64,000 nt of DNA from Saccharopolyspora sp. NFXS83 (lineage in GTDB: Bacteria; Actinomycetota; Actinomycetes; Mycobacteriales; Pseudonocardiaceae). Within the stretch, counting starts at the first letter, position 1. Each line of letters starts with the position of its first letter. Shown here piece after piece: positions 1-62,518 of this stretch. The position numbers and the translations under genes were made by a program. Where the stretch lies: the NCBI RefSeq assembly GCF_026241095.1, contig NZ_JAPFGB010000020.1, positions 1-64,000 on the forward strand, in the 5' to 3' direction. The notes beneath the pieces are model-generated. The model was not told the origin of the DNA and did no database searches. It worked only from the letters and a program-made list of their open reading frames with translations.

Positions 1-60
1 GAGCCACTCGGGAAAAAGATCCCGCAGCGAGGAAGCCGCTGAGGTTCCGCCACCCGACCA
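1..60 (+). repeat. Partial copy (right half) of dispersed ~165 bp hairpin repeat
   Basis: The first 60 bases match the right half of the three fuller copies near 2561, 17251 and 18131. They carry the right hairpin arm GCGAGGAAGCCGCTGAG followed by GTTCCGCCACCCG. The left half presumably lies outside the window. It sits just downstream of the minus-strand cupin gene, so its hairpin may mark the 3' end of that operon. Confidence 0.75.
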
Positions 61-83: not shown

Positions 84-638
84 TCAATCAGGCAAACCAG
101 CACATTCGCGACAAGGGCAGTGGGGGCAGTCCAGGGAGTGCAGGTACCGCGGAGCCCCTGCCGTCTTGTCGCACAGCAGGCAGGTGAGGTCGCCGTCGTC
201 GGCGATGATCTCCTCGTAGGGCACGGGCGTCATCCGGTCGCTGGAGTCGATGCGCTTGTGCGGGGCGCCGACCGCGACGATGAGGTGGTCGGTGATCGCG
301 CCGACCGCGTGCGGCACGGACCCTTCGACGAGGAACGTCTGCCCCGCCTGCGTCTCGTGGATCCGGCCGCCGTAGGTGATGGTGCCGACCCCGGCGACCA
401 CCGTGAGCACGTGGTGCCCGGGGTGGGTGTGCGGCACGAATCCTTGGCCCGCGGGCAACCGGATGAGGTCGGCGCCGATCTCGCCGTTGGTGGCGAGTTC
501 CCGGCCGCTGGCCGAGGCGGTGCCGTGCAGCGGGACGTCGAGCCCGCCGTGGTCCACGCGCAGGTCGGTGTGGTCGTCGGTGATGGAGTTCTTCGCCCAG
601 GTGGCGATCTCCAAGGGATGGTCGTCGCGCCGTGCCAT
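84..638 (-). CDS. Cupin-domain protein with a six-cysteine C-terminal tail
   Basis: This 184-residue protein is the last gene of the NRPS operon. Residues ~55-125 form a single cupin barrel with a His-rich metal motif (PHTHPGHH) and a second cupin box ending near VPHAVGA, so a bound metal is likely. The tail carries C153-x2-C156-x14-C171-x2-C174-x-C176-x2-C179, unusual for a cupin and suggestive of a second metal site. The ATG follows a strong AGGAGG and lies only 2 bases after the stop of the upstream AMP-ligase gene, so translation is probably coupled. Its reaction is unknown. A role in modifying or finishing the NRPS product, or in regulation, is inferred from position only. Confidence 0.8.
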   Translation of the reverse strand: MARRDDHPLEIATWAKNSITDDHTDLRVDHGGLDVPLHGTASASGRELATNGEIGADLIRLPAGQGFVPHTHPGHHVLTVVAGVGTITYGGRIHETQAGQTFLVEGSVPHAVGAITDHLIVAVGAPHKRIDSSDRMTPVPYEEIIADDGDLTCLLCDKTAGAPRYLHSLDCPHCPCRECAGLPD

Positions 639-640
639 GC

Positions 641-2476
641 TCACTCCTCCTGAGTCGGGCGGGCCCAGATGACGCCGCCGAGATCGTGCCGTCCGGCACG
701 CAGCACGGAGCAGCCGACGAGGGCATGTCCGTCGTGCCGGAGCCGGCGCAGCCTGCTCCACCGGTTCACGCGGTGGCCGGTCCCGCCGCCGGTGAGGAAC
801 GTCCACACCGGACCGAGCGCCCAGGGCGCCCGACCGGTGGTGGTTCCGGTCGCGTGCGGCAGCACCAGCAACCGCCCGTCTTCGATGGTCGTCTCCTCGC
901 CGAACGGGACGGCCACGGCGGGAGCGCCTTCGGCCGCCGCCACTTCCGCGGCGAGTTCGACGTGGGCCGCCAGCGGCCAGGCCGCGGCGAGCTTCGCGCG
1001 CCACACTGATTTCGCCGCCGCCAGTTCCGCGCTCTCGGGGCTCGTCCAGTGCTCGCGGACGAAGTCGACCGCTGCGAACGCCACGTCGTCCTCGGCCGTC
1101 GCGGTCGGCGGGGCGAGCGCTGCGAGCGCTTGGAGTTCGTCGGATCCGGGCGCGTCGGCGTGCATCCGGCGGGCGGCGAGGGCGGCGTGCTCCAGCAGCC
1201 GCTCGTACCGCCCGGGGGCCAGCCGCCGGGCGGCCAGCGACGCGCCCATCTTCGACCGCTGCGGCTTTCCCGTTGCGGTGGCGCGGAATCCGCCGAACCG
1301 CAGCACCGCCGGGCGCAGCGCGGTCCGCTCGCAGAGGTCTTGGACCACGCCCACTTCCGCGTCGTCGGTGACCAGGCCGATCTCCTGGCCCAGCGCGGGT
1401 TCGGCGACGCCGACGGCGGCGAAGCGACCGGTGAGGCCGTCGGCGCGCCAGCCGCGTTCGACCTCCAGCGGGTAGTGCTTCTCGCCGCCCCGGTTGATCC
1501 GCTCCTTGGTGCGCCCGTGCAGCACGAGCAGCCCGTCGCGCAGGTCGCCCAGGTCGCCGGTGCGCAGCCAGCCGTCGTCGGTGACGGCTTCGGCGGTGGC
1601 GGCCGGGTCTTCCCAGTAGCCGTCCATCAGGTCGGGGGTGCGGATCTGCACCTCGCCGGATTCCAGCCGCAGTTCCGTGTCCGGCAGGGCTTCCCCGACA
1701 GGCGGGAACCGGTCCAGGTACTGCTCGGAGAATCCCGCCGCGTCCAGCAGGGGCATGGTGAAGCTGAAGTTGACGGCTTCGGTGAGCCCGTAGCCCTGCC
1801 GCAGCCGGGGACCGTAGGTCCGGTGGAAGCGGCGGACCAGGTCCCCGGTCAGCGGTGCGGCGGCGGTGATCAGGTAGTCGAGTTCCGCGGGCCAGTCGGG
1901 TGCGGCGTCGAGCAGGTCGGCCAGCAGCGCCGGGACGATCGACGCGGTGCGCGCTCCCCCTTCGGTGAGCGCGGCGAAGTACCCGGCCGGGTCGAACCGG
2001 GAGTGCAGCACCAGCGGCGCCCCGGTCCGGTGCGTGCCGAGCAACGACATCACCAGCGCGTTGCAGTGGTACAGCGGCAGGCATGTCCCATGTGGACGAT
2101 CCGGTGAGATCCCGTGCAGCGCGGCGGTCTTCGCGGCGTTGCCGAGCACGGCGCGACGGCTGAGCCGGACGCCCTTCGGCCGCCCGGTGGAACCGGAGGT
2201 GAACATGATGAACGCCAGCCCCGCCGCGTCCGGGTGCTCCGGGGGGAGGCCGGTGGCGCGCACCTCGATCTCACCGGCGACCCGCTCCACCACGGCGCTC
2301 GCCCGGACCCGCCGCACGATCTCGGCGGGGTCGGTACCGCGCGGCGCCAGCGGGACCGCGACCAGCTCGCGGTCGAAGCAGGTCAGCAGCACGGACGCGA
2401 GGTCGGGGCCGTTGGGCAGCCGGATGACGACCCGCGCTCCGGCGGGCAGCGCCGCCAGCTCGGACCGGTACGGCAT
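641..2476 (-). CDS. AMP-dependent acyl ligase, N-terminally short, with extra C-terminal domain
   Basis: This 611-residue member of the ANL (acyl-CoA synthetase / NRPS adenylation) superfamily activates a carboxylic acid with ATP. The phosphate-binding core motif [11 protein letters not shown] is near residue 94, YGLTEA near 220 and a TGDLGDL motif near 295. A Lys in a TGKPQRSK context near 405 matches the catalytic A10 lysine. Two features are odd. The usual first ~50 residues are missing (an in-frame stop lies 11 codons upstream, and the GTG-free ATG has a GAGGTG site), and about 185 residues follow the A10 motif with no recognised carrier domain. It probably activates the N-capping acid or another building block for the adjacent NRPS. 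The substrate cannot be read from sequence. Confidence 0.85.
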   Translation of the reverse strand: MPYRSELAALPAGARVVIRLPNGPDLASVLLTCFDRELVAVPLAPRGTDPAEIVRRVRASAVVERVAGEIEVRATGLPPEHPDAAGLAFIMFTSGSTGRPKGVRLSRRAVLGNAAKTAALHGISPDRPHGTCLPLYHCNALVMSLLGTHRTGAPLVLHSRFDPAGYFAALTEGGARTASIVPALLADLLDAAPDWPAELDYLITAAAPLTGDLVRRFHRTYGPRLRQGYGLTEAVNFSFTMPLLDAAGFSEQYLDRFPPVGEALPDTELRLESGEVQIRTPDLMDGYWEDPAATAEAVTDDGWLRTGDLGDLRDGLLVLHGRTKERINRGGEKHYPLEVERGWRADGLTGRFAAVGVAEPALGQEIGLVTDDAEVGVVQDLCERTALRPAVLRFGGFRATATGKPQRSKMGASLAARRLAPGRYERLLEHAALAARRMHADAPGSDELQALAALAPPTATAEDDVAFAAVDFVREHWTSPESAELAAAKSVWRAKLAAAWPLAAHVELAAEVAAAEGAPAVAVPFGEETTIEDGRLLVLPHATGTTTGRAPWALGPVWTFLTGGGTGHRVNRWSRLRRLRHDGHALVGCSVLRAGRHDLGGVIWARPTQEE

Positions 2477-2560: not shown

Positions 2561-2728
2561 GTCAGCGGCGGAGCCGCTGTGCGGTGACCGGCTTGAGCGG
2601 GCCGCTCACCGGTGGGTTCTCAGCGGCTTCCTCGCGGGGACGGTTCTTCCTTCGTGGCGGAGCCAGTCGGGAGAAACGACCCCGCGGCGAGCAAGCCGCT
2701 GAGGTTCCGCTGAGCGCCTACGCAGGCC
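2561..2728 (+). repeat. Dispersed ~165 bp hairpin repeat, copy B
   Basis: This is a full copy. The left hairpin is CAGCGGC-GGA-GCCGCTG, followed by GGTTCTCAGCGGCTTCCTCGC and, about 60 bases later, the imperfect complement GCGAGCAAGCCGCTGAG. It fills the spacer between mbtH and the AMP-ligase gene and overlaps the last codons of mbtH. Any structure it forms would lie inside the operon transcript and could attenuate or process it. Confidence 0.85.
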
Positions 2729-2921
2729 GTTCCGCCGACGCGGGCCGGAGGTCCGTCCAGTGCTCTTCGACGTACCGCAGCGCGTCTTCGCGGCTCGCGC
2801 CGTCGAGCACCACGTCCCACCCGGCGGGGACCTCGGCGAACGCGGGCCACAGGGAGTGCTGGAGTTCGGTGTTGCGCAGCACCAGGAAGGTGCCGTCCTC
2901 GTCGTCGAACGGGTTGGTCAT
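2718..2921 (-). CDS. mbtH: MbtH-like NRPS accessory protein
   Basis: This 67-residue protein has the full MbtH signature: [10 protein letters not shown], then PAGW, then a C-terminal EEHWTDLRP block. MbtH-like proteins bind adenylation domains and are often needed for their solubility or activity, so this one should serve the three A domains of the neighbouring NRPS. Its ATG overlaps the NRPS stop codon as ATGA, which indicates translational coupling and roughly matched expression. The length is normal for the family. A copy of the dispersed repeat abuts its 3' end and separates it from the AMP-ligase gene. Confidence 0.97.
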
Positions 2922-5900
2922 GACCGCCGGTCCTCCTCGTGTTCGGTGTGCTCTCGCAGGTGGTCGCGCAGGATCGCGCCGAGTTCGCCGACGTGGCGCG
3001 GTTGCATGACCCGGTGGTGCGGGTGGTCGAGCCGGTACGTCGTGAACGGCCCGTCCAGGTGCGGGCGCCAGCGCCGCGGATCCGGGCCGTCCGGAGTTCC
3101 GATGTGGACGGTCGCGCCGGTGTGGTGCCCGGGCCGGTGCCCGGGCAGCAGGCTCGCGTTGTGCCGGGACACCTCGACGAGGTCGGCGATGTCCTGCTCG
3201 GTGAGCTCGGCGAGCGCGCTGCCCTCCTGGCGCAGCGCGGCCGACACCTCGGCGAACGAGCGCGGCACGTCCCCGTCGCGGCCGACGGAGGTGAGCAGCA
3301 CGCCGTGGATCCGCTCCAGGTCGATCGGATCGTCGTCACCGGGAGCTCCACCGCCGAGCGGCGGATCGATCAGGCACAGCAACCCGGTCTCCGCCCCGAG
3401 CCGCGCCGCCATCGCGTGCGCCACCAGCCCGCCGAACGACCAGCCCACCAGGTGGTACGGCCCTTCCGGGTGCGCCGACCGGAGCTCCGCGAGGTAGCGC
3501 TCGGCCATCGCGTCGACGTCGCCCGGCAGGTCCGCCACCCCGCCCGCACCGATCCCCTGCAGGCCGTACACCGGGTGCGCCGGGTCGAGGTGCGCCAGCA
3601 ACCCCGAGTACAACCAGGCCAGGCCGCTCAGCGGATGCACGCAGACGACCGGCGGGGCGTCGCCCCCGGTGCGCAGCGGAACGAGGTGACCGGCGGGCGC
3701 GTCGGTGGCGCCGAGCACCCGTGCCAGACCGGCCGGGGTCGCGGCGGCGAACACGTCGCGGATGTGCGGCCGGATGCCGAACTCCGCCTCGACGCGGTCC
3801 ACCAGGCGCACCGCGAGCAGCGAATGCCCGCCGAGTTCGAAGAAGTTCTCCCGGTGCCCGACCCGCGGCACGCCGAGCACGTCGGCGAACACCGCGCACA
3901 TCGCCTGCTGCGCCGCCGTCCCGGCCGGTTCGGGTTCGACCTCCGCCCGCCCCGGGTCGGGCAGCCGGTCGCGCAGCAGTTTCCCGTTGTGCGACAGCGG
4001 AAGTTCCGGCGTGGTCAGCAGCCGGGACGGGACCATGTAGGCGGGCAGCCGCTCCGCCAGGTGCGCCCGCACCGAGGCCAGGTCCGCGCCGGGCGCCACC
4101 AGGTGCCCGACGAGCCTGCGGTCTTGGGCGTCGTGGTCGTGCACCGCGACGGCCGCCGCCAGCACCTGCGGATGTTCGGTGAGCACCGCTTCGATCTCGC
4201 CGAGTTCCACCCGGTGGCCCCGGATCTTGATCTGGTCGTCGTCGCGGCCGTGGAAGCGCAGCACGCCGTCCCCGTCGCGGGAGGCGAGGTCGCCGGTGCG
4301 GTACATGCGGGTTCCGGGCGGCCCGAACGGGTCCGCGACGAACCGGAGCGCGGTGAGCGCGGTGCGGTGCAGGTAGCCGGTGGCCACGCCGCGCCCGGCG
4401 AGGTAGAGCTCACCGACGACTCCGGGCGGGACCGGGTTGAGCCACCGGTCGAGCACGTGGCAACTCGTGTTCCACAGCGGACTCCCGAGCGGCACCGCCG
4501 CCGGTTGCGCCCCCTGCACCTGGTGCGCCGTGGACCACACCGTGGTCTCCGTGGGCCCGTAGCAGGCGACCACCTCGCAACCGAGGTCGCCGAGCCGCTC
4601 GGCCAGCGGGCCGGGCACGAACTCACCGCCGATCACGGCCCGCACGCCGCGCAGGTCCCTCGGTCGCTGCGCGAGCAGCGCGTGCCACAGCGACGGCGTG
4701 GCCTGCATCGCTCGCACCCGGTGCCGGTCGACGAGGTCGAGCAGCAGCGCGGGGTCGCGGGTGAAGTCCCGTCCGGCGAGCACCACGGCCGCACCGGTGA
4801 CCACGCCCAGGTACAGCTCCGGCACCGACATGTCGAACCCGGCGGGCGCGGTCGCCAGGACCCGGTCGTCCGGCCCGAGCCGCAGCCGCTCGCGCAGGGA
4901 GCACAGCAGGTTCAGCACCGCGTCGTGCGGCACGACCACGCCCTTCGGCCGGCCCGTGGAGCCGGACGTGTAGATCACGTACGCGGTACCGGGCGGGACC
5001 GAGCCCGGCTCGCCGGGACCGTCCTCGCAGGTGAGCGCGCCGGTGTCGTCGTGCGTGACGACCAGGGCCGGGCGGGCGTCGGCGAGCACGCCCGCGACCC
5101 GGCGCCGCGGGAGGTCCGGGTCGTAGGGCAGGTACGCGGCACCGACGGCGGTCACCGCGAGTATCGCCGCGAGCAGGTCGGGTTCGCGGCGCAGGCCGAG
5201 CGCGACGAGCCGGCCCGGCCCGGCACCGCGCGCGGTGAGTTCCGCGGCGATCCGGTCCACCCGCTCGGCGACCTGCCGGTAGGTCAGCTCCCGATCGCCG
5301 TGGATCAGCGCCACCGCCTCCGGCGTGCGGGCGACCTGGGTGGCGAACAGCGAGTGCGCCGTGCCCGGCGGCACCTCCCGGGCGGTGCGCCGCGCTTGGT
5401 GCGCCAGCCCGGTGCGTTCGGCTTCGGTGAGCACCGGCAGCTCGGCGACGCTCCGCTCCGGCTCGGCGGTGGCGGCGCGCAGCAGCCGTTCCAGGCGGCC
5501 GATGAGCGCCCGTGCGGTGGCCGGGGTGAACAGCTCCGCGTCGTACTCCAGCACGCCGCCGATCCCGGCGGGCGCGCCGCGCTCGTCGTGGCCGGGGCGC
5601 AGGCTCCACAGCAGGTCCATCCGCGAGGAGGAACCGTGCAGCGCCACGGGTTCGACGGCCGTGCCGGGCAGGTCGAACTCGGTGGGCGGGGTGTCCTGGA
5701 AGGCCAGCATCACCTGGAAGATCGGGTGGTGCGCGAGCGAACGCGCCGGGCGCAGCACTTCGACGAGCCGCTCGAACGGCAGTTCCTGGTGGTCGAAGGC
5801 GTCCAGGTCCACCGACCGGATCCGCCGCAGCAACTCGCCGAAGGCGGGTTGCCCGGACAGGTCCGCGCGCAGCACCACGGTGTTCACGAAGCAGCCGACC

Positions 5901-8900
5901 GCGTCGTGCAGCGCGGCGTCGCCCCGACCGGCGACGGGGGTGCCGATGGGGAGGTCCGCACCGGCCCCGTGGCGGTGCAGCAGGACCGCGAGCGCGGCGT
6001 GCAGCACCATGAAGAGGCTGACGTCGTGGTCGTGGGCGAGCCGGGCCGCCGCCGCGTGCAGGTCGGCGTCGAACTCGATCTCGACGGTCTCCCCGACGTG
6101 CGCGGAGGCCGTCGGACGCGGGTGGTCGGTCGGCAGCGCCAACTGCTCCGGCGCGCCCTTGAGCACCCGCGTCCAGTGCTCGATCTGGTGATCGGTACCG
6201 ATGTCCTGCTGCCACAGCGTGAAATCGGCGTACTGCACCGGATCCGAGGTCCACTGCGGAGCAGCACCGCCGATCCGCGCGCGGTAGGCGCGGGACAGGT
6301 CGCGGCTCAGCGGGGCGAACGACGAGCCGTCGGCGGCGATGTGGTGCAGCAGGATCAGCAGCACGTGCTCACCGGGCGCCGAGGTGTAGAGGGTGACGCG
6401 CAGCGGCGGATCCGCCGCCAGGTCGAAGCGGTGCGCGGAGTCGGCGTCCAACCGCCGAGGCAGCTCCTGCTCGGACACTTCGACGTGCTCGAAGCACAGC
6501 GAGTCCGGGGCCAGAACGCGTTGCCACGGGCCGTCTTCCGCTTCGGCGACGACGGTGCGCAGGACCTCGTGGCGGGCCACCACGTCCCGCCACGCCTCCC
6601 GCAGCGCGACCGGGTCCAGCGCGCCGCGCAAGCGGTGGGCGAACCGCAGGTTGTAGGTCGAGCCGAACTCGTCGAACCCGCTGATGAACCACAACCGGCG
6701 CTGCGCGGGCGACAGCGGGACGCGCTCGGGACGCCTGCCCGCGCGCAGCCGCGGTCGGGACGCCTCGGCCTGGTCGGCGATGCGGCGGGCCAGTTCGGCC
6801 ACCGTGGGCGCGTCGAACAAGGTGCGGATGTCGAGCTCGACGCCCAGCCCCGAACGGATCCGGTTGATCAGCTGGGTGGCCAGCAGCGAATGCCCGCCGC
6901 TGTCGAAGAACCCCTCGTCCACGCCGATGCCCGGCACGCCCAGCGTCGCGGCGAACGCCTCGCGCAGGAACCGCTCCGCCGCGGTGCCCGGCGCCCGCCC
7001 CGGCGCCCGCCCGGACACCGGGCTCGGCAGCGCGCGGCGGTCCAGCTTCCCGTTGGGCGTCAGCGGAATCTCACCGACCGGCAGCACGAACGACGGCACC
7101 ATGTGCCGGGGCAGCACCGCCGCCGCGTGGTCGAGCAGCACCGCCGGTTCGACCTCCGCCGCGAGCACCGCGTAGGCCACCAGGCGCGGTCCGCCCGCGT
7201 CGTCGCGGGCGAGCACCACCGCTCGGGCGACCGACTCGTGCTGCTCCAGCACGTGCTCGACCTCGGACGGTTCGATGCGGAAACCGCGCACCTGCACCTG
7301 CTGGTCGACGCGGCCCAGGTATTCCAGCGACCCGTCGGGCAGGAACCGGGCCAGGTCGCCGGACCGGTACATCCGGGTGCCGGGCGGCCCGAACGGGTCG
7401 GCCACGAACCGGCACGCGGTGAGTCCTGGCCGCCCGAGGTAGCCGCGCGCCACACCGCGCCCCGCGACGTAGAGCTCACCGGGACAACCCGGGGGCACCG
7501 GCCGCAGCGCGCGGTCGAGCAGGTGCAGCCGCAGGTCGTCCAGCCCGGCGCCGACGACGCTGCGCGTCTCCGCCGGATCGCGCAGCTCCGCGTACGTGGT
7601 GTGCACGGTGGTCTCGGTGATCCCGTACATGTTGATCACGCGCGGGGTGTCCGCCGCGATCCGGCCCCGGACGCGCGCCGGGTCCAGCGCCTCCCCCGCC
7701 AGCACCACGCAGCGCACCGAGTCCGGCTCGGCACCGGATTCGACGAGCTGGTAGTACGCAGACGGGGTCTGCGACAGCGCGGTGACCCGCTCGCGGTCCA
7801 GCAGTTCCCGGAATTCCCCCGGTGCCCGGCTCACCTCGAACGGCACCACGACGAGCCGCCCGCCCCGCCCGAGCGCGGCCCACAGCTCCCACACCGACAT
7901 GTCGAACGCGTAGGAGTGGAACAGGGTGTGCACGTCGTCCGGGCCGAACCCGAAGTGCCGGTCGGTGACCACCAGCAGCCGGTGCACGTTGTCGTGCGTG
8001 ACGACCACGCCCTTCGGCGTGCCGGTCGACCCGGAGGTGTAGATGACGTAGGCGGTGTCGCCCGGCGCGATCGGGACCGCGAGGTCGCCGCCCGGCATCT
8101 CGTCCACGGCCGCAGCGACCGCGTCGTCGTCCAGCACCAGCGGCGCCGCCTCCGCGGGCAGCGCGGCGGCCGAGTCCCGCACCGCCACCACCAGTGCCGG
8201 ATCCGCGTCGGCCAGCGTGGCGCGCAGCCGCTCCGCCGGGTACGCCGGGTCCAGCGGCAGGTAGCCCGCACCGGACTTCAGCACCGCCAGCAGCGCGACC
8301 ACGAGTTCGGTGCCGCGCGGCAGCGCCAGCGCCACCAACCGCCCCGGACCCGCACCTCGCGACGTCAGCACCCGAGCCAGCCGGTTCGCCCGCGCGTTGA
8401 GCTCGCCGTAGGTGAGCCGCCGCTGCCCGCAGGACACCGCGGGCGCATCCGGACGCGCCGCCGAGTGCCGCTCGAACAGCTCCGGCAGCACCCCGCCCGG
8501 AACGTCCGGCAGCGGCGCGGGTGCGCGGTGCTCGCCGGGCAGCAGCAGGTCGATCTCGCCCAACCGCGCGTCCGGCGCCGAGCTGAGGCGTTCCAGCAGC
8601 GCGCCGAGCCGTTCCAGCAGCAGGCGCGCGGCGGGCTCGTCGGCGACGTCGTCGCGGTGGTCCAGCCGGAAGCCGAGCCGGTCGCCGGGCAGCACGATCA
8701 GCGACAGCGGGTAGTGCGTGCCGTCGGACACCCGCAGGTCGGTGATCCGCGGTTCCCGCAGGTGCCGCTGTGCGTCCTGCGGGTCCGGCGGGTAGTTCTC
8801 GAACACGAGCACGGTGTCGAACAGCTCGCCGTGCCCGGCGATGGCCTGCAACCGGGTCAGGTCGACGTGCTGGTGCTCCAGCACCGCGAGCTGCTGCTCG

Positions 8901-11900
8901 CGCAGCCCGGCCAGCGCCTCGGCCACGGTGCGACCCGCTCCGAGCCGCACCCGGACCGGCACCGTGTTGATGAGCAGCCCGACGACGTCCTCCACTCCCG
9001 GCAGCTCGGCGGGGCGGCCGGAGACGGTGGCGCCGAACACCACGTCGTCGCGCCCGGTCAACGCTCCCAGCAGCACGCCCCAGGCGAGCTGCACGAGGGT
9101 GTTGAAGGTGAGCCCGTGGCTGCGCGCGGCCTGCCGGATCCGCTCGGTCGCGGCGGCGTCGAGCTCGTGGTGCACCCGCCCGTGCCGCGCCGCGCCCGCG
9201 CCGGGCGCGGCCACCAGCGCCGGTTCATCCACATCGGACAGCAATGCGCGCCATGCGACCTCGTGCGCGGCGGAGTCCTGCTTCGCCATCCAGTCCAGGA
9301 AAGCGCGGTAGGGCACCGGGTCCGGCAGCGGCTCGGCCGCGTACAGCGCGAACAGGTCCCGGATCAGGATCGGCATCGACCAGCCGTCGATGAGGATGTG
9401 GTGCGTGGTCAGCACGAACACGTGCCGGTCCGGGCCGGTGCGCAGCAGCGCGGCGCGCAGCACCGGCGGGTCGCTCAGGTCGAAACGTCGGGCGCGGTCC
9501 GCGTCGAGGTAGCGGGTGACGTCGGCCTCGGCGGGTGCGTCGAGCTCGGTCCAGTCGACGCCGAACCGGGACGGCCACACCTGCACCGGGACGCCGTCGG
9601 TGCCGTGCCGGAACCCGGCGGTGAGCTGCGGGTGCCTGCGCAGCAGCGCGTGCACCGCGCCGCGCAGCGCCGCGGCGTCGAGCGCGCCGGTGAGCTCGAA
9701 CCCGAACTGCACTAGGTACGGGTCGACGCCGTCGCGGTCGAACAGCGAGTGGAACAGCAGTCCCTGCGCCAGCGGCGGCAGCGCCAGCACCTCGCCGCCG
9801 TCCCGGTCGGTTCGGTGCCGCGCCTCGGCGGCCAGCTCGGTGAGCACCTCGAACCAGCGCCGGGCCAGCTCGTCGACCTCGTGCTCCGGCACGAGTTCGC
9901 CCGCCCAGGACCAGTTCGCGGTCAGCCGCGGACCGTCGGCGCCGTCGGTGATCAGCGAGTCGAGTTCGATCGGGTGCGTCAGCGGCAGGTCCGGCGGCAT
10001 CGCCGAGCCGAGCACGCCCGACCACGGCTGCGGGCCCCAATCCTGCTCACCCGCGGCGTCGAAGCGCCCGAGGTAGTTGAACCCGAGCTGCGGGCGGGTA
10101 CCACCGGCCAGCTCCGGCGCGGTCTGCGGGTTCAGGTGGCGCAGCAGACCATGGCCGATGCCGTTGCGCGGTATCGAATCCAGCGCTGCGCGGACCCGCT
10201 CGACCGGTTCGTCCCAGCCGGCGCTCTCGGGCTGCGCGCCGCGCAGGTCGAACCGCACCGGGAACCGGGTGGTGAACCAGCCGACGGTGCGGGACAGGTC
10301 CTGGTCGTCGGCGAACTCCTCCCTGCCGTGGCGCTCCACGTCCACCAGCACCGCGTCACCGGCGCGCGGGTGGCCCGTCACGGCCAGCGCGAACGCCGCG
10401 AGCAGCACGGTGTCCACCGGGCAGCCGAACACCGCGGCGGCGCGGTGCACCAGTTCACCGGTGACCGCGGCGGGCAGCGTCAGGGACCGGTGCGCGCGAG
10501 TGGCTTCCGAGTCGGTCTCCGGCGACAGCGGTCGCGCGGTCAACGGCGGATCGGAGGCGGCGGCCAGGTCCCTCCACAGTGGATGCTCCGCCTGCACTTC
10601 GGGTTGCTGCGCCCGCGAACCCGAATCGCGCGCCCACTCCGCGAAGGAAGTGCCGACCGGATCCGGCCGCGGCGCGCGACCTTCGACGACTGCACGCCCG
10701 GCGTCGCGCAGGTCGTCGAGCAGGATCCGCCAGGACACCCCGTCCACGGCGAGGTGGTGCACGGCGAGCACCAGCGTGCCCGGCTCGGCACCGGCGTCGA
10801 GCCACACCGCCCGAACGACGCGGCCCGCAGCGGGATCCAGTCCCGCTTGCGCCGAGCGCGCGTGCTCGGCGGCGAGCTCCCGCAGCTCCGCACCCCCCAG
10901 GCCGCGCACGTCCTCGCGCACGAGCTCGCACTCCGGGTCCTCGGCGACCGACAGCGACCACAATACGTCCGTTGTGGACAGCCGCAATCGCAGCATGTCG
11001 TGATGTGCCACCACAGCGCGCAGCACGGCGCGCATCCCGTCCTCGTCGAACCCGGCCGGGGTCCGCAGCACCGCGTACTGCGCGAAACCCGCCACCGAGC
11101 CGCCCAGCTCCCGGAACCAGTGCATGATCGGCGTCAGCGGCAGCGGCCCCCGATCCGGCCCGGTGTCGCGACGCGCCGGTGCGGCCGGGACTCCGGCGTG
11201 TCGAGCCAGCGCGGCGGACGTGGGATGCCGGAACACGTCGGCGGTGCCGATCCCGAAACCCGCGCGCCGCGCCCGGCTGGCGAACTGGATCGCCGTGATG
11301 CTGTCACCGCCGAGCTCGAAGAAGTCCGCCTCCGGCGACACGTCCGCGAGCCCGAGCACCTCGCCCACCAAGCGCCGCAGCACCTGCTCGGCGTCGGTCG
11401 AGGACGCCACCTCCACCACTTCCGCGCTCGCACCGGCGGGCGCGGGAAGGGCATCGCGGTCGAGCTTTCCGTTGCGGTTCAACGGCAATTCGTCCACCGG
11501 CACGATCGCCGAGGGCACCATGAACGCGGGGAGCGCCGCGTCCGCCCGAGCCGACAGGACGTCGGCGTCGGCCTCCCCGACCACGTAGCTCACGATCCGC
11601 CGCCGACCGGGACGGTCCTCGCGCAGCACCGTCGCGACCTGCCGCACACCGGGCGCGCCGCGCAGCGCGGCGTCGATCTCGCCGAGCTCGATGCGGTAGC
11701 CCCGCAGCTTCACCTGGCCGTCGGCGCGTCCCGCGAACTCCAACAGCCCCTCGGAGTTCCATCTGGCCAGGTCACCGGTGCGGTACATCCGCTCGCCCGG
11801 CGGGCCGGACGGGCAGGCCACGAACCGGTGCGCCGTCGCGCCCGGAGCGCCGACGTAGCCGCGCGCCACGCCCGCGCCCGCCAGGTACAGCTCGCCGACG

Positions 11901-14287
11901 ACGCCCGGCGGCACCGGCCGCAGCGCGTCGTCGAGCAGGTGGACCCGCTTGCCGTCCAGCGGCGCCCCGATCGGCACCGTCGCCTCGTCGAGCGCGGTTC
12001 CGGGCGGCACGGGCTGCCGGGTCGCGAACACCGTCGTCTCCGTCGGCCCGTAGCCGTTGACCACGGTCAATCCCGGCACTGCCTCCTGCACCCGGCGCAC
12101 GGCGGCGGGCGAGACGACGTCACCGCCGGTCCACACCTGGCGCACCCCGGCCAGGCAAGCCGGGTTCTCCTCGCTGAGCGCGTCGAACAGGCCCGCCGTG
12201 AGCCACAGCCCGGTGATGCGGTGCGCGGCGACGGTCTCGCCGAGCACGCCGAGGTCGGCGGCGTCCGGCGGAGCCAGGACCACCTCTCCCCCGGTGAGCA
12301 GCGGCACCCACAGCTCCAAGGTCAACGCGTCGAAGGCGTGCGGCGAGTGCAGCAGCACCCGCCGAGCACCGCCCTCCGCCCACCACCGGTCGGCGACCAG
12401 CCGCACCAGGTTGTCGTGGGTGATCGCGACGCCCTTCGGCACACCGGTGGAACCGGACGTGAACATGACGCACGCGAGCCGCGCCGGCTCGGGGTCCGCA
12501 TCCGCCTCCGGGGCCGCCGGTGCGGGCTCGGCGAGGTCGAGCACCCGGCCCCGTTCCCGGAACCACGCGGCGAAATCGTCCGTCGTCACGTTGGTGACCA
12601 GCAGCTCGATCCGGGCGGTGTCCGCGATGGTGCGCAGCCGGTCGGGCGCGTCGCCCCGGTGCAGCGGCACGTACGCCGCGCCCACCCGGACCACGGCCAG
12701 CACCGCCACCACAAGGTCCGCGGACCGCTCCACCAGCAGCCCCACCGGCGACTCCGCACCCGCCCCGGCCGCGACCAGCCGGGCCGCCAGCGCGGCGGAG
12801 CGGACGTCCAGTTCGCGGTAGGTCAGCCGCTCGCCCGTGGCCGCCGAGGTCACCGCGACCGCATCGGGCCGGCTGCGCACCTGCTCGGCGAACGCCGCGA
12901 CCGCGTTGCGCGCGACCGGCTCCGACGGCGCGCCGGTACCGGCCGCGAGCACCTCCGCCCGCTGCTGCGGGGACACCGGCTCGAACCGGCCCAGCGGCGT
13001 CTCCGCCGGAGCGTCCACCAGCTGCCGCAGCAACCGCTGGAACCGGTTCCGGGCCGCCGCGAGCAGCTCCTCGTCGTGGTTGGCGGGATTCGCGTCGAAG
13101 TCGAAGCGCAGCTCCCCGTCGCCCCGGTCGTAGGCGACCACGGAGAAGTCCTCCGACGGCGGCGCCTGCACGTTGTGGACGCTCGCCGAGCAGTCGCCGA
13201 AGCGCAGGCCGTAGGCGAACTTCTGGATGTTCACCACCGGGCCGAAGAACACCCGGCCGTCCTCGGGGTAGCCGAGTTCGCGGCGCAACCGCTCACCCCG
13301 GTACCGCTGGTGGCGCTGCACCCCGGCGACCTCGGCGGTGACCTGCTCGACGAACTCGCCGACGGTGGCGGCCGGGTCGACGCGCAGCCGCAGCGGCAGC
13401 ACGTTCGCCGACATCGAAGGCACGGTGCGGCTGAGCTCGGTGGCCCGGCCCGGGACCGGCAGGCTCAGCACCACGTCCCGGCTGCCCGTCACCGCGTGGG
13501 TGTGCAGCGCGGTGGTCGCCACGATCAGCCGCGACCAGCGCTGCCCGAGCCGCTGCGCGGCGGCGCGCAACCCGGCGAACGCCGACTCGTCCAGGACTGC
13601 GCTCAACCGCAGCGACCGCGCCGAGGCCGCGGCCGGACGGGCCGCCATGCTCAGGAACCCGGGACCGTCCGCGAGCCGGTCCTGCCACCACCGCCGGTCC
13701 GCGTCGAACTCGGCGCGCCGGCGGTACTCGTCCTCTTCGGACAGCAGCGCGGCCGACGACGCCCAGCCGCTGGCGGGCACGGGCTCACCCGCGCCGCGGT
13801 GGCCGTAGATCTCCGACACCCGCTGGGAGAACAGCGTCATGCCCACGCCGTCGAGCGCGATGTGGTGCACCCACTGGAAGAGCAGGTGGCGGTCGTCGGC
13901 GATCCGCAGCACCTCCGCGCCGAACAGCGGGCCGGTCGCCAAGTCCACGGGCCGGTCCAGTTCCGCGCGCATCAGCTCCAGCGCCGCCGCGTGCGGTTCC
14001 GCTTCGGCGCGCAGGTCCCGGACGGCGATGTCGGGCTCACCGGCGCGGAGGCGACGGCGAGGCCGGCCGTCGGAACCTTCGGCGAAGACCGCGTTGATCG
14101 CCTCGGTGTCGCGAGCGGCGAGGCGGACCGCCGCCACCAGCGCGTCCACGTCCAGCGGCCCGGCGATGTCGACGTACTCGCCCCACAGGTACCGCGAGCG
14201 CTGTTCGGAGCGGGCCTGCTCGGCGATCCAGATGCCGAGTTCGGCGTCGGACGCGGGCAGCTCGGCGGAGTTCTCGCCCAGGTTCAT
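2918..14287 (-). CDS. Three-module nonribosomal peptide synthetase (C-A-T-E, C-A-T, C-A-T-TE)
   Basis: This 3789-residue enzyme has, in order: C1 ~12-435 (HHIALDG), A1 ~462-950, T1 (Ser996), E ~1047-1490 ([16 protein letters not shown]), C2 ~1500-1920 (HHILIDG), A2 ~1935-2422, T2 (Ser2467), C3 ~2522-2950 (HHIAADG), A3 ~2975-3445, T3 (Ser3489) and a type I thioesterase ~3540-3785 (GWSFGG, Ser3617). Specificity residues aligned by eye to PheA give A1 DALWWGGVFK (valine-like), A2 DMWSVAMVHK (nearest Thr) and A3 DMPQVGCVWK (unassigned). The E domain predicts a D-residue first, and C2 follows an E domain as a DCL type would. C1 resembles the EntF C domain, which accepts an acyl or aryl group, so the peptide is probably N-capped. 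A GAGG site precedes the ATG. The product is not identified. Confidence 0.97.
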
Positions 14288-14866: not shown

Positions 14867-16057
14867 TCACCCCGGCGGGACGTGCGCGCGCAGGAACCGC
14901 AGCAGTTCCGCGCGGCTCACCGCGCCGCCGGTGGTGTGGAAGCGGGAGTCGAAGGCGTGGTCGCCGAACGGCACCGCCACGTAGTCCACGACGTCGCCCT
15001 CCGCGCGCAGCCGGTCGGCGAACCCGCGAACCCGCTTCTCCAAGATCAGGTGATCGTCGACGCCGGTGACCAGCAGAGTCGGCATCAGCCCCGGCCGGAC
15101 CCGAGCCACCGCCGACGCGTGCACGTAGCGCTCCGGGAACCGCTCCGGCGATCCACCGAGGTAGGCGACCGCCGTGCGCCTGCCGTAGCCGCCGAGGCCG
15201 GCGTCCGCGTAGGCCCCGGCCAGGTCGACCGCCGGGTAGAACCCCGCCACCGCGATCGGCGGCGCCGGCCGCACGCCGCCGCAGCCGCCCACGTCGTCCC
15301 GGGCGGCCAGCGCGTACCCGGCGTTGATGGCGAGACCGCCGCCCGCCGACCCGCCGGAGAGCACCAGGCGCGACGGGTCGACGCCCAGCTCCGCGGCGTG
15401 CTCGGTGATCCAGGACAGCGCGCACACCACATCGGAAGTGGCGTCGCGCCAGCGCGGCGGCGGCGCCAGGCGGTAGTCGATCGAGATCACCGGATAGCCC
15501 CGGTCCGCGAGGTACCGGTACAGGGCGCGCTGCTCGAAGCGGCTGCCCGCGCTGAAGCCGCCCCCGTGCACCCACACCACGGCTGGGCGCGCGGCACCGG
15601 CGCGCGGCGGAGACCAGACGGAGGCTCGCAGCTCGTGGCCGCCGACCTCGGCGAAGACCTCGGTCCGGTCCGGTGGCGCGGTGGGCGTTGCCGCGCCCAG
15701 CACGTCGGCGAACCCGACCGGAACACCGCGCTCGTGCGCGAAGGACAGCTGGCCGCCGAGCACGACCAGCGAACCGGCCAGCGCGATCAGGGCTGCACCG
15801 CCGAGCGCGCTCGCGGCTCGCCGCACCCGCAGCCACCACCCGACCGCGGCGACCGACGCCAGCACGATGCCGAGCAGCACGAACCGGAAGGCCCACCGGC
15901 CGACCAGCTGCGGGCCGAGAACGCCGAAGAACGGCAGTGCCGGGATCAGGGCGCCGAGCACCGGGAGTGCCACGGCGACGGCGACCACGACGCCCGCGGA
16001 GACCACCACGACACCGAGCGCTCGGGCGGCGGACCACCGCCGGGCCTCATCCGCCAC
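14867..16057 (-). CDS. Membrane-anchored alpha/beta hydrolase (BD-FAE / hormone-sensitive-lipase-like esterase)
   Basis: This 396-residue protein has three hydrophobic segments in its first ~105 residues, followed by a hydrolase domain. The oxyanion motif HGGG is at 164-167 and the nucleophile is Ser237 in GGSAGGG. A GVDDH motif and a late GDHAF histidine complete a plausible Ser-Asp-His triad. Such enzymes cleave esters of small acids or carbohydrates, and the catalytic domain here probably faces outside. The start is GTG behind AGAGGTG; an in-frame ATG is less well placed. It is separated from the NRPS by 579 bases, and nothing ties it to that pathway beyond neighbourhood. Confidence 0.85.
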   Translation of the reverse strand: MADEARRWSAARALGVVVVSAGVVVAVAVALPVLGALIPALPFFGVLGPQLVGRWAFRFVLLGIVLASVAAVGWWLRVRRAASALGGAALIALAGSLVVLGGQLSFAHERGVPVGFADVLGAATPTAPPDRTEVFAEVGGHELRASVWSPPRAGAARPAVVWVHGGGFSAGSRFEQRALYRYLADRGYPVISIDYRLAPPPRWRDATSDVVCALSWITEHAAELGVDPSRLVLSGGSAGGGLAINAGYALAARDDVGGCGGVRPAPPIAVAGFYPAVDLAGAYADAGLGGYGRRTAVAYLGGSPERFPERYVHASAVARVRPGLMPTLLVTGVDDHLILEKRVRGFADRLRAEGDVVDYVAVPFGDHAFDSRFHTTGGAVSRAELLRFLRAHVPPG

Positions 16058-17250: not shown

Positions 17251-17412
17251 TGTCAGCGGCGGAGCCGCTGAGCAGTGACCAGCTCCACCGGCGGGTTCTC
17301 AGCGGCTTCCTCGCGAGGACAGCGATTTCGTGGCGCAAGGGGGCCTACAAGGAGAAATCGATCCCGCAGCGAGGAAGCCGCTGAGGTTCCGCCACCCGGA
17401 CACCTGCGCAGA
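17251..17412 (+). repeat. Dispersed ~165 bp hairpin repeat, copy C
   Basis: This is the clearest copy. The left hairpin CAGCGGC-GGA-GCCGCTG is perfect. The long arms at 17298-17314 (CTCAGCGGCTTCCTCGC) and 17369-17385 pair over 17 bp around a 54-base loop. It lies between two convergent genes, so it could end transcription from both sides. Confidence 0.9.
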
Positions 17413-41347: not shown

Positions 41348-43057
<1,710 letters not shown>

Positions 43058-43501
43058 TCAGACCGCTTGCAGCGTTCCGTCCGATGTGGACTGCTCGGCG
43101 GGTTCGATCTCGGCGCGGATCAGCACTCGGACGGCGTCCTGCTCCGCTCCCCGCTCGATCTGCCAACCGCGTTCCCGCCAGTCGGCCAAGCCTCGATCGG
43201 CGCAGCGCTCGTGACCGGGCTGCGCCGTGTCCGCAGCCGGGATCGAGGTGTCCAGCCGCACCGCGTGCAGCGCCGGGATCGCGGCCATCGCCCGCTGCGC
43301 CGCGAGCAGGAAACCGCCGTCGCCCTCGCACCGGATCGACGCGGGCAGCCGCAGCAGGACCCGCACCTGCCTGCCATCGGTGGAGACCGCGGTGACGAAC
43401 CCCCGCACCCCCAGTGCGAGCCTGCCCTCGCGAGGGCAGACCTGTTGCAACGACCGCCAGATCTCGGTCAGCACGCGGCTGCGGAATTCGGGATCGGACA
43501 T
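43058..43501 (-). CDS. MIP18/DUF59-like metal-cluster assembly protein
   Basis: This 147-residue protein has an N-terminal MIP18-like fold (~5-85): EIWRSLQQVC...LGVRGFVTAVSTDGRQVRVLLRLPASIRCEGDGGFLLAAQRAMAAIPALHAVRL. The loop Cys58 matches the conserved Cys of iron-sulfur assembly factors. The C-terminal ~60 residues are an extension (CADRGLADWRERGWQIER). Proteins of this kind recur between the coupling protein and GroEL in actinobacterial propane monooxygenase operons, presumably helping assemble a metal centre. It lies 65 bases after prmD and 60 before groEL. Confidence 0.75.
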   Translation of the reverse strand: MSDPEFRSRVLTEIWRSLQQVCPREGRLALGVRGFVTAVSTDGRQVRVLLRLPASIRCEGDGGFLLAAQRAMAAIPALHAVRLDTSIPAADTAQPGHERCADRGLADWRERGWQIERGAEQDAVRVLIRAEIEPAEQSTSDGTLQAV

Positions 43502-43566
43502 GGCATTCCCCTGTTCCTCCGAGCGCGGGCGCGGCGCCCGTGGGCGCCCGCGCCCGCCACGATCGG

Positions 43567-43893
43567 TCAGCTCACCGGTGTCAGGTCGAAATCGATGTAC
43601 TCGGCGGCGTCCTCCGGGTTCGCGAACAGCACCGTGCGGTCGTCGAGGTGCACCATGCGCCCGTAGTGGGTGGACATGATCTCCTCGAAGTCCGACTGGT
43701 CGAACTCGAAACCGATCTCGTCGGCGATCTCCTCGAACTCGAAGATCAAGGTGCCGTGCGCGTCGACGCGGATCATGGAAGGCAGGTGGTCGACCCGCAC
43801 GCCCTCCTTGCGGGCCATGATCTCGGCGACGATGTGGCCGTTCTGGTTGTTCATCAGCGTCACGCCGCACATGTTTGAAGCGGTCACACCCAT
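43567..43893 (-). CDS. prmD: Propane monooxygenase coupling (effector) protein
   Basis: This 108-residue protein belongs to the MmoB/DmpM family, small cofactor-free proteins that bind the hydroxylase and gate O2 and substrate access. The diagnostic parts are an N-terminal [18 protein letters not shown]-like strand and [25 protein letters not shown]. The ATG is five bases after the prmC stop, which implies translational coupling and matched amounts with the hydroxylase. Confidence 0.95.
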
Positions 43894-43898
43894 GACGT

Positions 43899-45008
43899 TC
43901 ACCCCTTCTGTTCGGTGAGTCCGAGATCGCCGAGCACCGCGGCGAATCCCTCTTCGGCGGCGGCGAAGGAGTCGGCGAACGTGATGACCTTCTCCTGCGG
44001 CTGGGACCAGATCGGCTGCAGCTCGTGCGCGGCGGCCCGGCACATCGGCGCCCACCGCCGGACCCAGCCCTGCATGACCTGCCGGTTCACGTCCCCGAAT
44101 CCGGCGTCCTCGGCCAGCATCCGGAACAGCGCGCCGCTGTAGCCGAGGTCCCGCTCGTGGTCGTTCTCTCCGGTGCCGACCAGCGACGGCGTCACGTAGT
44201 CGCTGTTGCGCGCGGCGATCTGCATCACCAGGTGGCTGCGGAACAGCACTCCCACCAGCGACTCGAACACGACGTTGGCCGCGAACACCGCCTCGGCCCA
44301 GTCGCCGATCGCGGTGAGGTTCTCGACGACCTCCCGCACCGGCTGCCACGCCGGGTCCTCCTGCCACACCCCGCGATGCGCCGATCCGTCGAACTCCAAG
44401 CCGGATTCGGCCAAGTCCAAGTTGTAGAGCGCGAGGTCCTGGGCGAACCGCAGCTTGTGCGCGGCGTTCACCGCAATCGCGTTGTTGATCATGTTCGTGG
44501 GACCGGAGCGCTGCGCAGCGGTGAACACGTGCAGGCCCAGCCCGTTCTCCACGTGCATCCACGCACCGAGGTGCCGCTCCACGAACCGCGTCCAGCCGCG
44601 GGGCCAGCCGCTGTAGGCCCCGGCTTGCTTGGCGTTGGTGAGGTTCTGCTGGATCTGCCGGACCACGTTGGCGTTGTTCCGGTAGATCGTCTGCTCCCAC
44701 TCCTCGTTGGGATCCCGGAACGTGTGCCAGTCGGTCGACTTCAGCGCCGTCCAGTCCTTCGGATAGCCGCCCTCGCCGTCACCGAAGCCGTAGATCCAGC
44801 CCTGCGTGAGGTGGCGTTCCGGGTCGGGCTGCACGTCGAACGTGACGTCCTCGTACATCGTCGCGCGCATCTTGCGGGGGCTGAAGTAGTTGTAGGCGCG
44901 GGAACCCGAGCTGGGGAACTCCAGCGCGCCCGCCTCGGCGTCGGTGAACTCCGGTTTGGGGAAGCTGCGGGTCCGGCTCTCGGATGCCGGCGTTTCCTGC
45001 GTCGTCAT
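43899..45008 (-). CDS. prmC: Propane monooxygenase hydroxylase small (beta) subunit
   Basis: This 369-residue protein is the beta subunit of the soluble diiron hydroxylase. It starts with the family's [35 protein letters not shown] and has no iron ligands of its own, as expected. It pairs with PrmA in an alpha-beta dimer of dimers. AAGGAGG precedes the ATG. The gap to prmB is 78 bases and is filled by 21 bp tandem repeats, which encode a possible small peptide whose stop overlaps this ATG. Confidence 0.96.
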
Positions 45009-45085
45009 GGCCGTCCTCCTTGCTGCTGGCGGATGTTGCGGGCTCGCTCACGGATGTTGCGGGCCGGCTCGCGGATGTTCCGCAC
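45005..45085 (-). CDS. Candidate 26-residue heptad-repeat microprotein between prmB and prmC
   Basis: A GTG two bases after the prmB stop opens a 26-codon frame that ends as ATGA on the prmC start codon. The peptide is three near-copies of the heptad (A/V)RNIRE(P/R) or RNIRQQQ, followed by GGRP. It is strongly basic. Each heptad is one 21 bp DNA repeat. No ribosome site precedes the GTG, so it would rely on reinitiation after prmB. It may equally be a non-coding spacer; expression is unproven. Confidence 0.3.
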   Translation of the reverse strand: MRNIREPARNIRERARNIRQQQGGRP

Positions 45086-45086
45086 C
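45030..45086. repeat. 21 bp tandem repeat, 2.7 copies, in the prmB-prmC spacer
   Basis: On the plus strand CGGATGTTGCGGGCTCGCTCA (one 21-base unit, here shown as its 45030-45050 copy: CGGATGTTGCGGG core) is followed at 45051-45071 by a unit differing at four positions, then a 15-base partial unit at 45072-45086. The period is a multiple of three and begins directly after the prmB stop. Confidence 0.85.
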
Positions 45087-46118
45087 TCAGCCGGCTTCGG
45101 CGGAGACGGTGAACTTGTCGTAGAAGATCTGTTCCTGCGGTACGGAGCGCTCCTCCAGCACCGCCAACCCCGCGTCGATCATCGGAGGCGGGCCGCAGAG
45201 GTAGATGTCGCAGTCGGCCAGCGAAGCCTCGCGTTCGGCCGCGACGGCGGTGACCATGCCGCGCGCACCGGACCACTCCGCGTCCGAGAGCACCGGCACG
45301 AAGCTGAACCCGGGGATCCGGCCGCCCAGCTCGGCGATCTCGTCGAGCAGGAACAGATCGCGTTCGGTGCGCGCGCCGTAGTAGAAGACCACCTCGCGGT
45401 CGAAGTCGTCCTTGGCCGCGATCTGGCGCAGCAGCGACAAGATCGGCGCCATGCCCGCACCACCGGCCAGCAGCACGATCCTGCGGTCCGTGGAGACGCG
45501 CAGGGTGAACGTGCCGTAGGGACCGGTGATCGACAACGGCACGCCGGGACGCAGCTCGTCCTCCAGCAGCCCGGAGAACCTGCCGCCCGGATAGCGCTTG
45601 ATGATGAACTCCAGCTCACTGCCACCGACGCGCGGCAGGTTCGCCATCGAGAACGACCGGTGCTCCTCGCTGCCGGGAACGGTCACGTCGACGTACTGGC
45701 CGGGGTGGAACTTGAACTCGTCGTCACCGGTGACCGCGAGCCGCAGCAGGCTGATGTCGTGGGTCAGCTCTTCGACGGCCGCGACCTCGGTGTCCACGGT
45801 GACGACGGGCAACCCGGCGCGGATCATGTCCTCGTCGTAGTTGAGCAGTTCGACGTCCAGATCGCTGTAGGCGTGCGAGCGGCACAGCAGGACATAACCC
45901 TCGTCGCTCTCGTAATCGGCCAAGGCGAACGTCGAATAGCGACCCATCTGCACGTCGCCGTCCAGCAGGAACGACTTGCACGCCGAGCACTGCCCTTCCT
46001 TGCACCCGTGCATCAACATGACGCCCTGCCGGAACGCGGCGTCCAGCACGGTCTCGCCTTCGTCGGCCTCGATCTCGATGTCCACCGGTTCGAACCGGAT
46101 CCGATGCGCATCGCCCAT
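45087..46118 (-). CDS. prmB: Propane monooxygenase reductase (2Fe-2S ferredoxin / FAD / NADH)
   Basis: This 343-residue electron-transfer protein has an N-terminal plant-type ferredoxin domain with Cys39, Cys44, Cys47 and Cys79 (CKEGQCSACKSF...LLCRSH). An FAD domain follows (RSFSMAN, GRFSGLLED) and then an NAD domain (GGAGMAPILSLLRQI; YLCGPPPMI at the end). It moves electrons from NADH to the diiron hydroxylase. AAAGGAGAG precedes the ATG. A 191-base spacer separates it from prmA; I see no gene there. Confidence 0.97.
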   Translation of the reverse strand: MGDAHRIRFEPVDIEIEADEGETVLDAAFRQGVMLMHGCKEGQCSACKSFLLDGDVQMGRYSTFALADYESDEGYVLLCRSHAYSDLDVELLNYDEDMIRAGLPVVTVDTEVAAVEELTHDISLLRLAVTGDDEFKFHPGQYVDVTVPGSEEHRSFSMANLPRVGGSELEFIIKRYPGGRFSGLLEDELRPGVPLSITGPYGTFTLRVSTDRRIVLLAGGAGMAPILSLLRQIAAKDDFDREVVFYYGARTERDLFLLDEIAELGGRIPGFSFVPVLSDAEWSGARGMVTAVAAEREASLADCDIYLCGPPPMIDAGLAVLEERSVPQEQIFYDKFTVSAEAG

Positions 46119-46309
46119 GACGCTCTCCTTTCGCCCACAGGCTGGTATCGGGCAGCGGCGCCCAGGCCCCACTCGACGCCACTGCCCGAGTTGAAGAGTC
46201 CGTTCGGAGTGGTTCGCCCGGCGGTGCCGGAGGCGCTGAGGCAGGCCCGCCGGCTTCGCCGTTGACGCGCACTGCCGCGACCCACCCCGAGCGGACCGCT
46301 GATGACCGC

Positions 46310-48045: not shown

Positions 48046-48187
48046 CAATCCCGCGGCACTTCCACCGGATACGATGACCGTCACGCAACGTCGCGCAGCC
48101 CTCACCGACCGGACGCGTTCCCGGCGGTTCGAGGAACGGGTCCGCCCCGGTCAGCGGCGTCGAGACCGCCGTAGTCCGGGAGGTGCC

Positions 48188-62512: not shown

Positions 62513-62518
62513 CGGTCA

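Follow-up and report, generated by a model that had tools for sequence, protein, structure and literature searches.

The sulfonamide group is common in drugs and very rare in nature. In the biosynthesis of SB-203208, SbzM acts as a multi-step cysteine oxidase that converts L-cysteine to 2-sulfamoylacetaldehyde. SbzJ oxidises this aldehyde, SbzL activates the acid and loads it onto a carrier protein, and SbzI transfers it (PMC6331615, in the part available to us). A 2021 review, likewise available in part (PMC9113183), puts the number of highly potent sulfonamides and sulfamates from actinomycetes, taken together, at eight. The same text reports SbzM homologues in many actinomycetes, Saccharopolyspora and Actinokineospora among them, which adjoin a PKS and an AMP-ligase in some and NRPS genes in others, and gives no product for them as of 2021. 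In later open-licence literature, including the accessible part of PMC12945691, we found no product for SbzM-NRPS or SbzM-PKS clusters. The SbzM-type enzyme and its proximity to NRPS genes have already been described in general terms (accessible text of PMC9113183). Compared with the open-licence literature, what is new here is the assignment of a cap to a conserved NRPS line, the adenylation codes of that line, its reach to Sorangium and an alternative gene family.

We analysed a stretch of 64,000 nucleotides from Saccharopolyspora sp. NFXS83 (the window). The source genome is 6.9 Mb in 70 contigs, and the window covers bases 1-64000 of its contig, which starts at window base 1. An NRPS gene (2918..14287) is followed downstream by genes for an MbtH-like protein (2718..2921; 67 aa; PF03621, E 1.5e-25), an AMP-ligase (641..2476; 611 aa) and a cupin (84..638; 184 aa), all on the minus strand. 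The start of the MbtH gene overlaps the NRPS stop by 4 bases, and the cupin gene starts directly after the ligase stop. An esterase-like alpha/beta hydrolase gene (14867..16057, minus strand; PF20434/PF07859) is kept at the locus in G003 and G005 and was not found at the G004 locus. It is a possible accessory gene rather than a core one, and its membership is doubtful.

The cupin gene lies at the contig end, near an interspersed repeat. G003, a genome of the same genus assembled in one contig, carries these genes in an identical arrangement and with the same surroundings; the two predicted genes that come next, an amino acid permease and one without a Pfam match, are on the opposite strand. 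Therefore, nothing essential seems to be lost at the contig end. The repeat, GCGGAACCTCAGCGGCTT, occurs at window positions 33-50, 2693-2710 and 17375-17392, one copy being between the MbtH and ligase genes. The genome holds 110 copies at ≤1 mismatch (control 0), several of them at contig ends.

The NRPS reading frame begins with ATG and is uninterrupted over 3,789 aa. Its domains are ordered C1-A1-T1-E / C2-A2-T2 / C3-A3-T3-TE, with four condensation-family domains (C1, E, C2 and C3) and three adenylation stretches (TIGR01733). Domain matches and motifs place C2 at 8528..9772, C3 at 5411..6724 and the matched part of the E domain, predicted to give a D-configured first residue, at 10055..11122; a domain match places C1 at 12959..14266. 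The approximate limits are 11438..12925 for A1, 7013..8485 for A2, 3938..5410 for A3 and 2948..3685 for the thioesterase, all on the minus strand. HHxxxDG, carrier-serine and thioesterase GWSFGG motifs are all present, and they are conserved in orthologues wherever these are readable. A preliminary description of this DNA had proposed an intact three-module enzyme with its catalytic motifs, and the reading frame, domain matches and motifs confirm it. The MbtH, ligase and cupin genes and the contig start at window base 1 went unmentioned in that description. Because G003 encodes an intact orthologue of 3,789 aa with 93% identity, the NRPS of the window is not a chance reading. The frame is broken in G004 (near residue 880), G114, G245 and G1150, by mutation or sequencing error.

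We compared C1 with condensation domains of solved structure. Its best matches are, in order, 7c1h (7e-63), CDA synthetase I, ObiF1, EntF and 1l5a (2e-31), and the remaining solved matches are at 1.5e-20 or weaker. We take 7c1h to be the Cs domain of RzmA and 1l5a to be VibH, and we take the top matches to be starter domains, lipo-initiating in the case of 7c1h and CDA and aryl-using in that of EntF and ObiF1. These matches indicate that C1 is a starter-like condensation domain, resembling known starter C domains more closely than other C domains. The gene lists for G003, G004 and G005, in which part of the neighbours are annotated, show no NRPS-sized frame immediately upstream. Since the tripeptide NRPS is self-contained and C1 is starter-like, the expected product is, in agreement with the preliminary description, an N-acyl-D-X-Y-Z peptide.

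The preliminary description had also called C1 EntF-like and suggested an aryl or acyl cap. EntF of enterobactin and MxcG of myxochelin biosynthesis share with the window a starter-like C domain and a C-A-T order at the start. However, the window NRPS has three modules and falls far under both NCBIfam equivalog cut-offs (1329.7 of 2400 bits for EntF, 1543.8 of 2300 bits for MxcG), and no free carrier protein was found among the cluster neighbours scanned. Therefore, the self-contained enzyme and its starter-like C1 stand, and an aryl, EntF-like cap is unsupported.

We re-read the adenylation codes using motif anchors, which were set by the PheA numbering. This reproduced the three codes given before, DALWWGGVFK, DMWSVAMVHK and DMPQVGCVWK. 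The A1 code is DALWWGGVFK at 14 of 15 readable loci, Sorangium included, and DVLWWGGVFK at the other. It agrees at 8 of 10 positions with DALWIGGTFK, a published Val code (PMC12283262, accessible in part). Over 15 readable loci, A2 has the consensus D(M/V/F)(W/F)(S/A/C)(V/I)(A/G)(M/L)VHK. The A2 code of G266 is identical to DFWSVGMVHK, published for Thr and modified Thr (accessible part of PMC12283262), and that of the window matches it at 8 of 10 positions. A3 was readable at 16 loci, where D....G.V.K is constant. For A3, the preliminary description knew of no match. The Sorangium code, DILQLGCVWK, narrows this, sharing 8 of 10 positions with DILQLGMIWK, the code of Gly domains with a MOX domain (same source, same part); the A3 code of the window shares 5 of 10. 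We predict Val for A1, Thr for A2 and Gly for A3, with A1 and A3 assigned by resemblance. Because the codes are nearly fixed across loci, the product line looks like a single compound family spanning two phyla.

The cupin belongs to Cupin_2 in Pfam and has a single near relative in the PDB, 9UG7 (E 1.5e-77 over residues 8-182; 3.3e-99 with a profile). The depositors titled this entry "sulfonamide synthase SbzM", and we found no paper naming 9UG7 in the open-licence literature. In place of SbzM from NCIMB 40513, we used the sbz-type cupins of G1145 and G1161, both of the genus Streptomyces, to which the window cupin is 44% and 46% identical, respectively, over 171 aa. In an alignment of eight cupins, 58 columns are invariant in all eight, including His70, His72, His76, His110, Cys153, Cys156 and Cys171. 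The HxHPGxH motif and H110 are kept, and H70, H72, H76 and H110 probably have a metal role. The Cys-rich tail differs in part from the tails of the two sbz-type cupins. An AlphaFold model of the SbzM-like cupin (pLDDT 37) was unusable as a fold, and its Foldseek comparison with 9UG7 gave a TM of 0.26-0.28 at 60-67% identity; the relationship to SbzM rests on the PDB sequence and profile searches, not on this model. These searches indicate full-length homology to SbzM and suggest, by analogy, that the cupin may convert L-cysteine to 2-sulfamoylacetaldehyde.

We next compared the window with sbz-type clusters. The cupin of G1145 is surrounded by a class-I (I/L/M/V-type) tRNA-synthetase-like protein, an adenylation enzyme, a GNAT protein, two carrier proteins, an aldehyde dehydrogenase and an AMP-ligase. 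G1161 has six of the other G1145 genes in common, with the aldehyde dehydrogenase at 78%, and a ligase was not found within the stretch read. By comparison with the available part of PMC6331615, we assigned both as sbz clusters. The window shares with SB-203208/altemicidin biosynthesis (Streptomyces sp. NCIMB 40513) an SbzM-family cupin and an adjacent AMP-ligase that may activate the same acid. In contrast, the roughly 20 window genes scanned include no IleRS-like SbzA, no GNAT acyltransferase, no SbzI-like gene and no carrier protein. The acceptor in the window would instead be the starter-like domain of the NRPS, and the ligase is of another clade and has an odd C-terminal tail. No SbzJ-type aldehyde dehydrogenase lies beside the cluster. 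The genome has 10 matches to the sbz-type aldehyde dehydrogenase at E≤1e-40 (best 41%), none of them on the window contig.

The clusters with SbzM homologues beside NRPS genes in Fig. 7C of PMC9113183, where Saccharopolyspora is among the genera, are probably of the same type as that of the window; the accessible text is silent on their gene order, codes, cap assignment and product and on any alternative gene. The 'orphan' status claimed in the preliminary description holds for the product, but this partly available review had already noted SbzM-NRPS clusters. A further related type combines SbzM, an AMP-ligase and a type I PKS in Actinokineospora spheciospongiae and relatives (Fig. 7B of the same review, accessible in part). 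It has an SbzM-like cupin and a ligase of the same clade as the window, but a single-module PKS takes the place of the NRPS and the ligase tail is shorter. In one PKS cluster with an SbzM-like cupin and ligase (L182:1088-2575), a LuxC-type acyl-CoA reductase adjoins.

The AMP-ligase, which we predict to act on 2-sulfamoylacetate, has acyl-CoA and aryl-CoA ligases as its best family matches. It retains what we take to be the P-loop and the catalytic-lysine motif (Lys404, TGKPQR). The C-terminal extension (644..1189, minus strand), the last ~180 residues, has no Pfam match in the protein of the window itself. Methyltransf_12 matches this tail in two of six relatives scanned (E 1.6e-6 and 7.2e-7) and not in the other four, which points to a possible relict of a methyltransferase domain. 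Both relatives with a methyltransferase-matching tail have lost the P-loop and the lysine. We built a tree of 50 ligases, comprising 24 clade members, one sbz-type ligase and 25 further ligases retained by a length filter. The window ligase and 23 relatives form one clade with support of 100. Its sister group joins the G1145 ligase of sbz type to a single ligase from G002 (support 90); because the branches are long, the sister placement of this SbzL-like ligase is unsure and only suggestive.

Ligase relatives at L084:6502-8436, L086:10724-12667 and L087:2784-4718 have lost both the P-loop and the catalytic lysine and are possibly non-catalytic. An SbzM-like cupin adjoins two of these three. 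LeuA and LeuB are two neighbours of the degenerate ligase of G068, and frames of like size occur in G146, G161, G197 and G131. We dropped this context, as these may well be primary leucine/isoleucine genes.

An NRPS with the ligase next downstream, in some cases with MbtH between them, occurs at no fewer than 17 loci. The 17 that we list are the window, G003, G004, G005, G114, G283, G266, G245, G021, G050, G1135, G1150, four named Streptomyces records and Sorangium cellulosum So ce26; two of them (L093 and L095) hold the NRPS end only. The gene after the ligase encodes an SbzM-like cupin at 10 of these 17 loci and a member of an alternative family of ~240 aa at the other 7. Ligase and SbzM-like cupin are also neighbours at three of four single-module PKS loci. 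In wider searches, 18 of 297 genomes of the family gave a match to the ligase tail, with a query that is approximate at its start. SbzM-like cupins were found in 8 of 397 genomes of the order (E≤1e-15), 2 of 394 genomes of the class and 12 of 242 genomes of the genus Streptomyces (E≤1e-10; 7 strong and 5 weak). The cupin and ligase searches overlap, and a limited number of candidates was scored per genome.

From the observed domain order, codes, homologies, gene order and conservation, we infer the chemistry of the cluster, which probably makes a sulfonamide-capped tripeptide. The cupin would convert L-cysteine to 2-sulfamoylacetaldehyde, as SbzM does, and an aldehyde dehydrogenase encoded elsewhere would oxidise this to 2-sulfamoylacetate. 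The AMP-ligase would activate the acid, perhaps as a CoA thioester. We assume a CoA ester because no carrier protein for the ligase is found among the scanned neighbours, whereas SbzL loads one. C1 would then use the 2-sulfamoylacetyl group to acylate Val on T1, the E domain would epimerise Val to the D form, and modules 2 and 3 would, by their codes, add Thr and Gly. Release by the thioesterase would give sulfamoylacetyl-D-Val-Thr-Gly, either as the linear acid or, if the Thr hydroxyl takes part, as a lactone or oligomer. The linear acid has a calculated formula of C13H24N4O8S and an [M+H]+ of 397.1388. If so, a small number of genes, present at 17 or more loci in distant bacteria, would define a concrete structure with its mass. 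Several observations count against the sulfonamide cap: no aldehyde dehydrogenase adjoins the cluster, the neighbours scanned include no carrier protein, the placement of the SbzL-like ligase as sister joins long branches, the cupin tail differs in part, 7 of the 17 listed loci have no SbzM-like cupin next to the ligase, A1 and A3 are assigned by resemblance and the A3 code of the window matches the Gly code at 5 of 10 positions.

One alternative is an ordinary cap, a fatty or aromatic acyl group, with the ligase and C1 lipo- or aryl-initiating and the cupin having a tailoring or cysteine-related role outside the cap. The solved relatives of C1, presumably lipo-initiating (7c1h, CDA) and aryl-using (EntF, ObiF1), would fit this, as would the acyl-CoA and aryl-CoA ligases that head the family matches of the AMP-ligase and the seven listed loci at which no cupin lies beside it. 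However, the strong SbzM-like matches read in context adjoin this ligase clade, degenerate members included; the exceptions are the two sbz-type clusters and G031 (no ligase within the 30 kb read), and five weak Streptomyces matches were left out. In addition, G1094 has, in order, a ligase of the same clade, an SbzM-like cupin, an aldehyde dehydrogenase and an ATP-grasp protein, and thus unites the set for making activated sulfamoylacetate from cysteine. We consider an ordinary acyl cap unlikely.

A second alternative is that the cupin carries out another reaction on cysteine, giving a sulfinate, a taurine-like or a decarboxylated product, so that the cap would be a different sulfur-containing acid. 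SbzM is a multi-step cysteine oxidase (PMC6331615, accessible in part), the window cupin is 44-46% identical to the two sbz-type cupins and the cluster lacks SbzJ, all of which would leave room for such a change. Against it, Foldseek aligns the window cupin at 60-67% identity with 9UG7, which its depositors named a sulfonamide synthase, and the HxHPGxH motif and H110 are kept. This makes a different sulfur-containing acid rather improbable. A hydrazine-synthetase-like pair, in which the ligase would make an acyl ester of a hydroxylamine and the cupin would rearrange it to an N-N bond, follows the logic of an adenylating enzyme with a cupin (PMC11705231, accessible in part), but we dropped it as very improbable because the PDB holds no close relative of that kind, the SbzM entry being the sole close one of the cupin, and no N-hydroxylase is found among the annotated neighbours.

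The sulfamoylacetyl cap leaves the question of what replaces the cupin at the seven remaining loci. The alternative genes are located at L123:11773-12492, L080:15128-15844, L096:11899-12636, L093:2774-3508, L079:5203-5919, L078:5824-6540 and L081:2965-3666, and the loci are those of G266, G245, G021, G050, Streptomyces NRRL F-5630, S. sabulosicollis and Sorangium. The proteins, of ~240 aa, are 73-85% identical to the Sorangium member. No Pfam match was found for two members (0.01) and no NCBIfam match for three (10), and a PDB search gave no match at 10. A profile comparison with the SbzM family returned a probability of 0.1%; as both alignments are shallow, a distant link may still exist. The AlphaFold model is strand-rich (pLDDT 68, pTM 0.69), and Foldseek found nothing at E≤0.001, with a few cupins among the weak matches. 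The proteins recall cupins in having an HLH motif followed further on by a conserved His, and it is by this HxH and later His alone that a cupin fold is suggested.

Six alternative-type genomes were searched for SbzM-like cupins. None was found at E≤1e-6 in G266, G245, G021, F-5630 and Sorangium, and the PKS cluster of G050 contains one. Because five of the six gave no such match, the NRPS line can apparently do without the cupin. A search of the window's genome for the alternative family found no member. Beyond NRPS clusters, members turned up next to an asparagine-synthase-like gene in G320 and, in G1145, at a distance of ~12 kb from the SbzM-like gene.

In the NRPS tree (17 rows), a single branch splits SbzM-type from alternative-type loci. 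We dropped the idea of several swaps between the two genes: the ligase tree needs three changes, with one clade unrejected (AU p 0.34), and the NRPS tree needs just one. Between the 10 SbzM-type and 7 alternative-type ligases, three columns (298, 395 and 605) separate the groups, all outside the motifs that we take, from general knowledge of such ligases, to surround the acyl pocket. In C1, none of 431 columns separates the 9 SbzM-type from the 6 alternative-type sequences. Each of A1, T1, E, C2, A2, T2, C3, A3 and TE has 1-7 such columns, and T3 has none. Since neither C1 nor the pocket motifs of the ligase carry a group-specific change, the simplest reading is that both types of gene feed the same acid. 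This pattern is suggestive, and shared ancestry alone would yield part of it. Tentatively, the alternative family could be a second, unrelated enzyme that makes the same sulfonamide starter, although we regard this as somewhat doubtful. If true, the N-S bond would have been solved twice in nature, both times to supply a single conserved NRPS line in Actinomycetota and Sorangium. The family allows a direct test of whether the same group can come from a second enzyme family.

Three other regions are recorded here. In G003, past the cluster, a Nif11-domain protein and an ABC transporter lie beside a 1,109-aa protein (L025:4705-7534), possibly a peptide-natural-product cluster. Window positions 41348-47944 look like a multicomponent monooxygenase operon: they encode two proteins of the phenol/alkene hydroxylase type together with a Cpn60 chaperonin, and a Fis-type regulator lies at 48074. 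At 61049-63958, two adjacent stand-alone condensation-domain proteins are encoded, with an amidase, an MMPL protein and an ABC-type membrane protein nearby.
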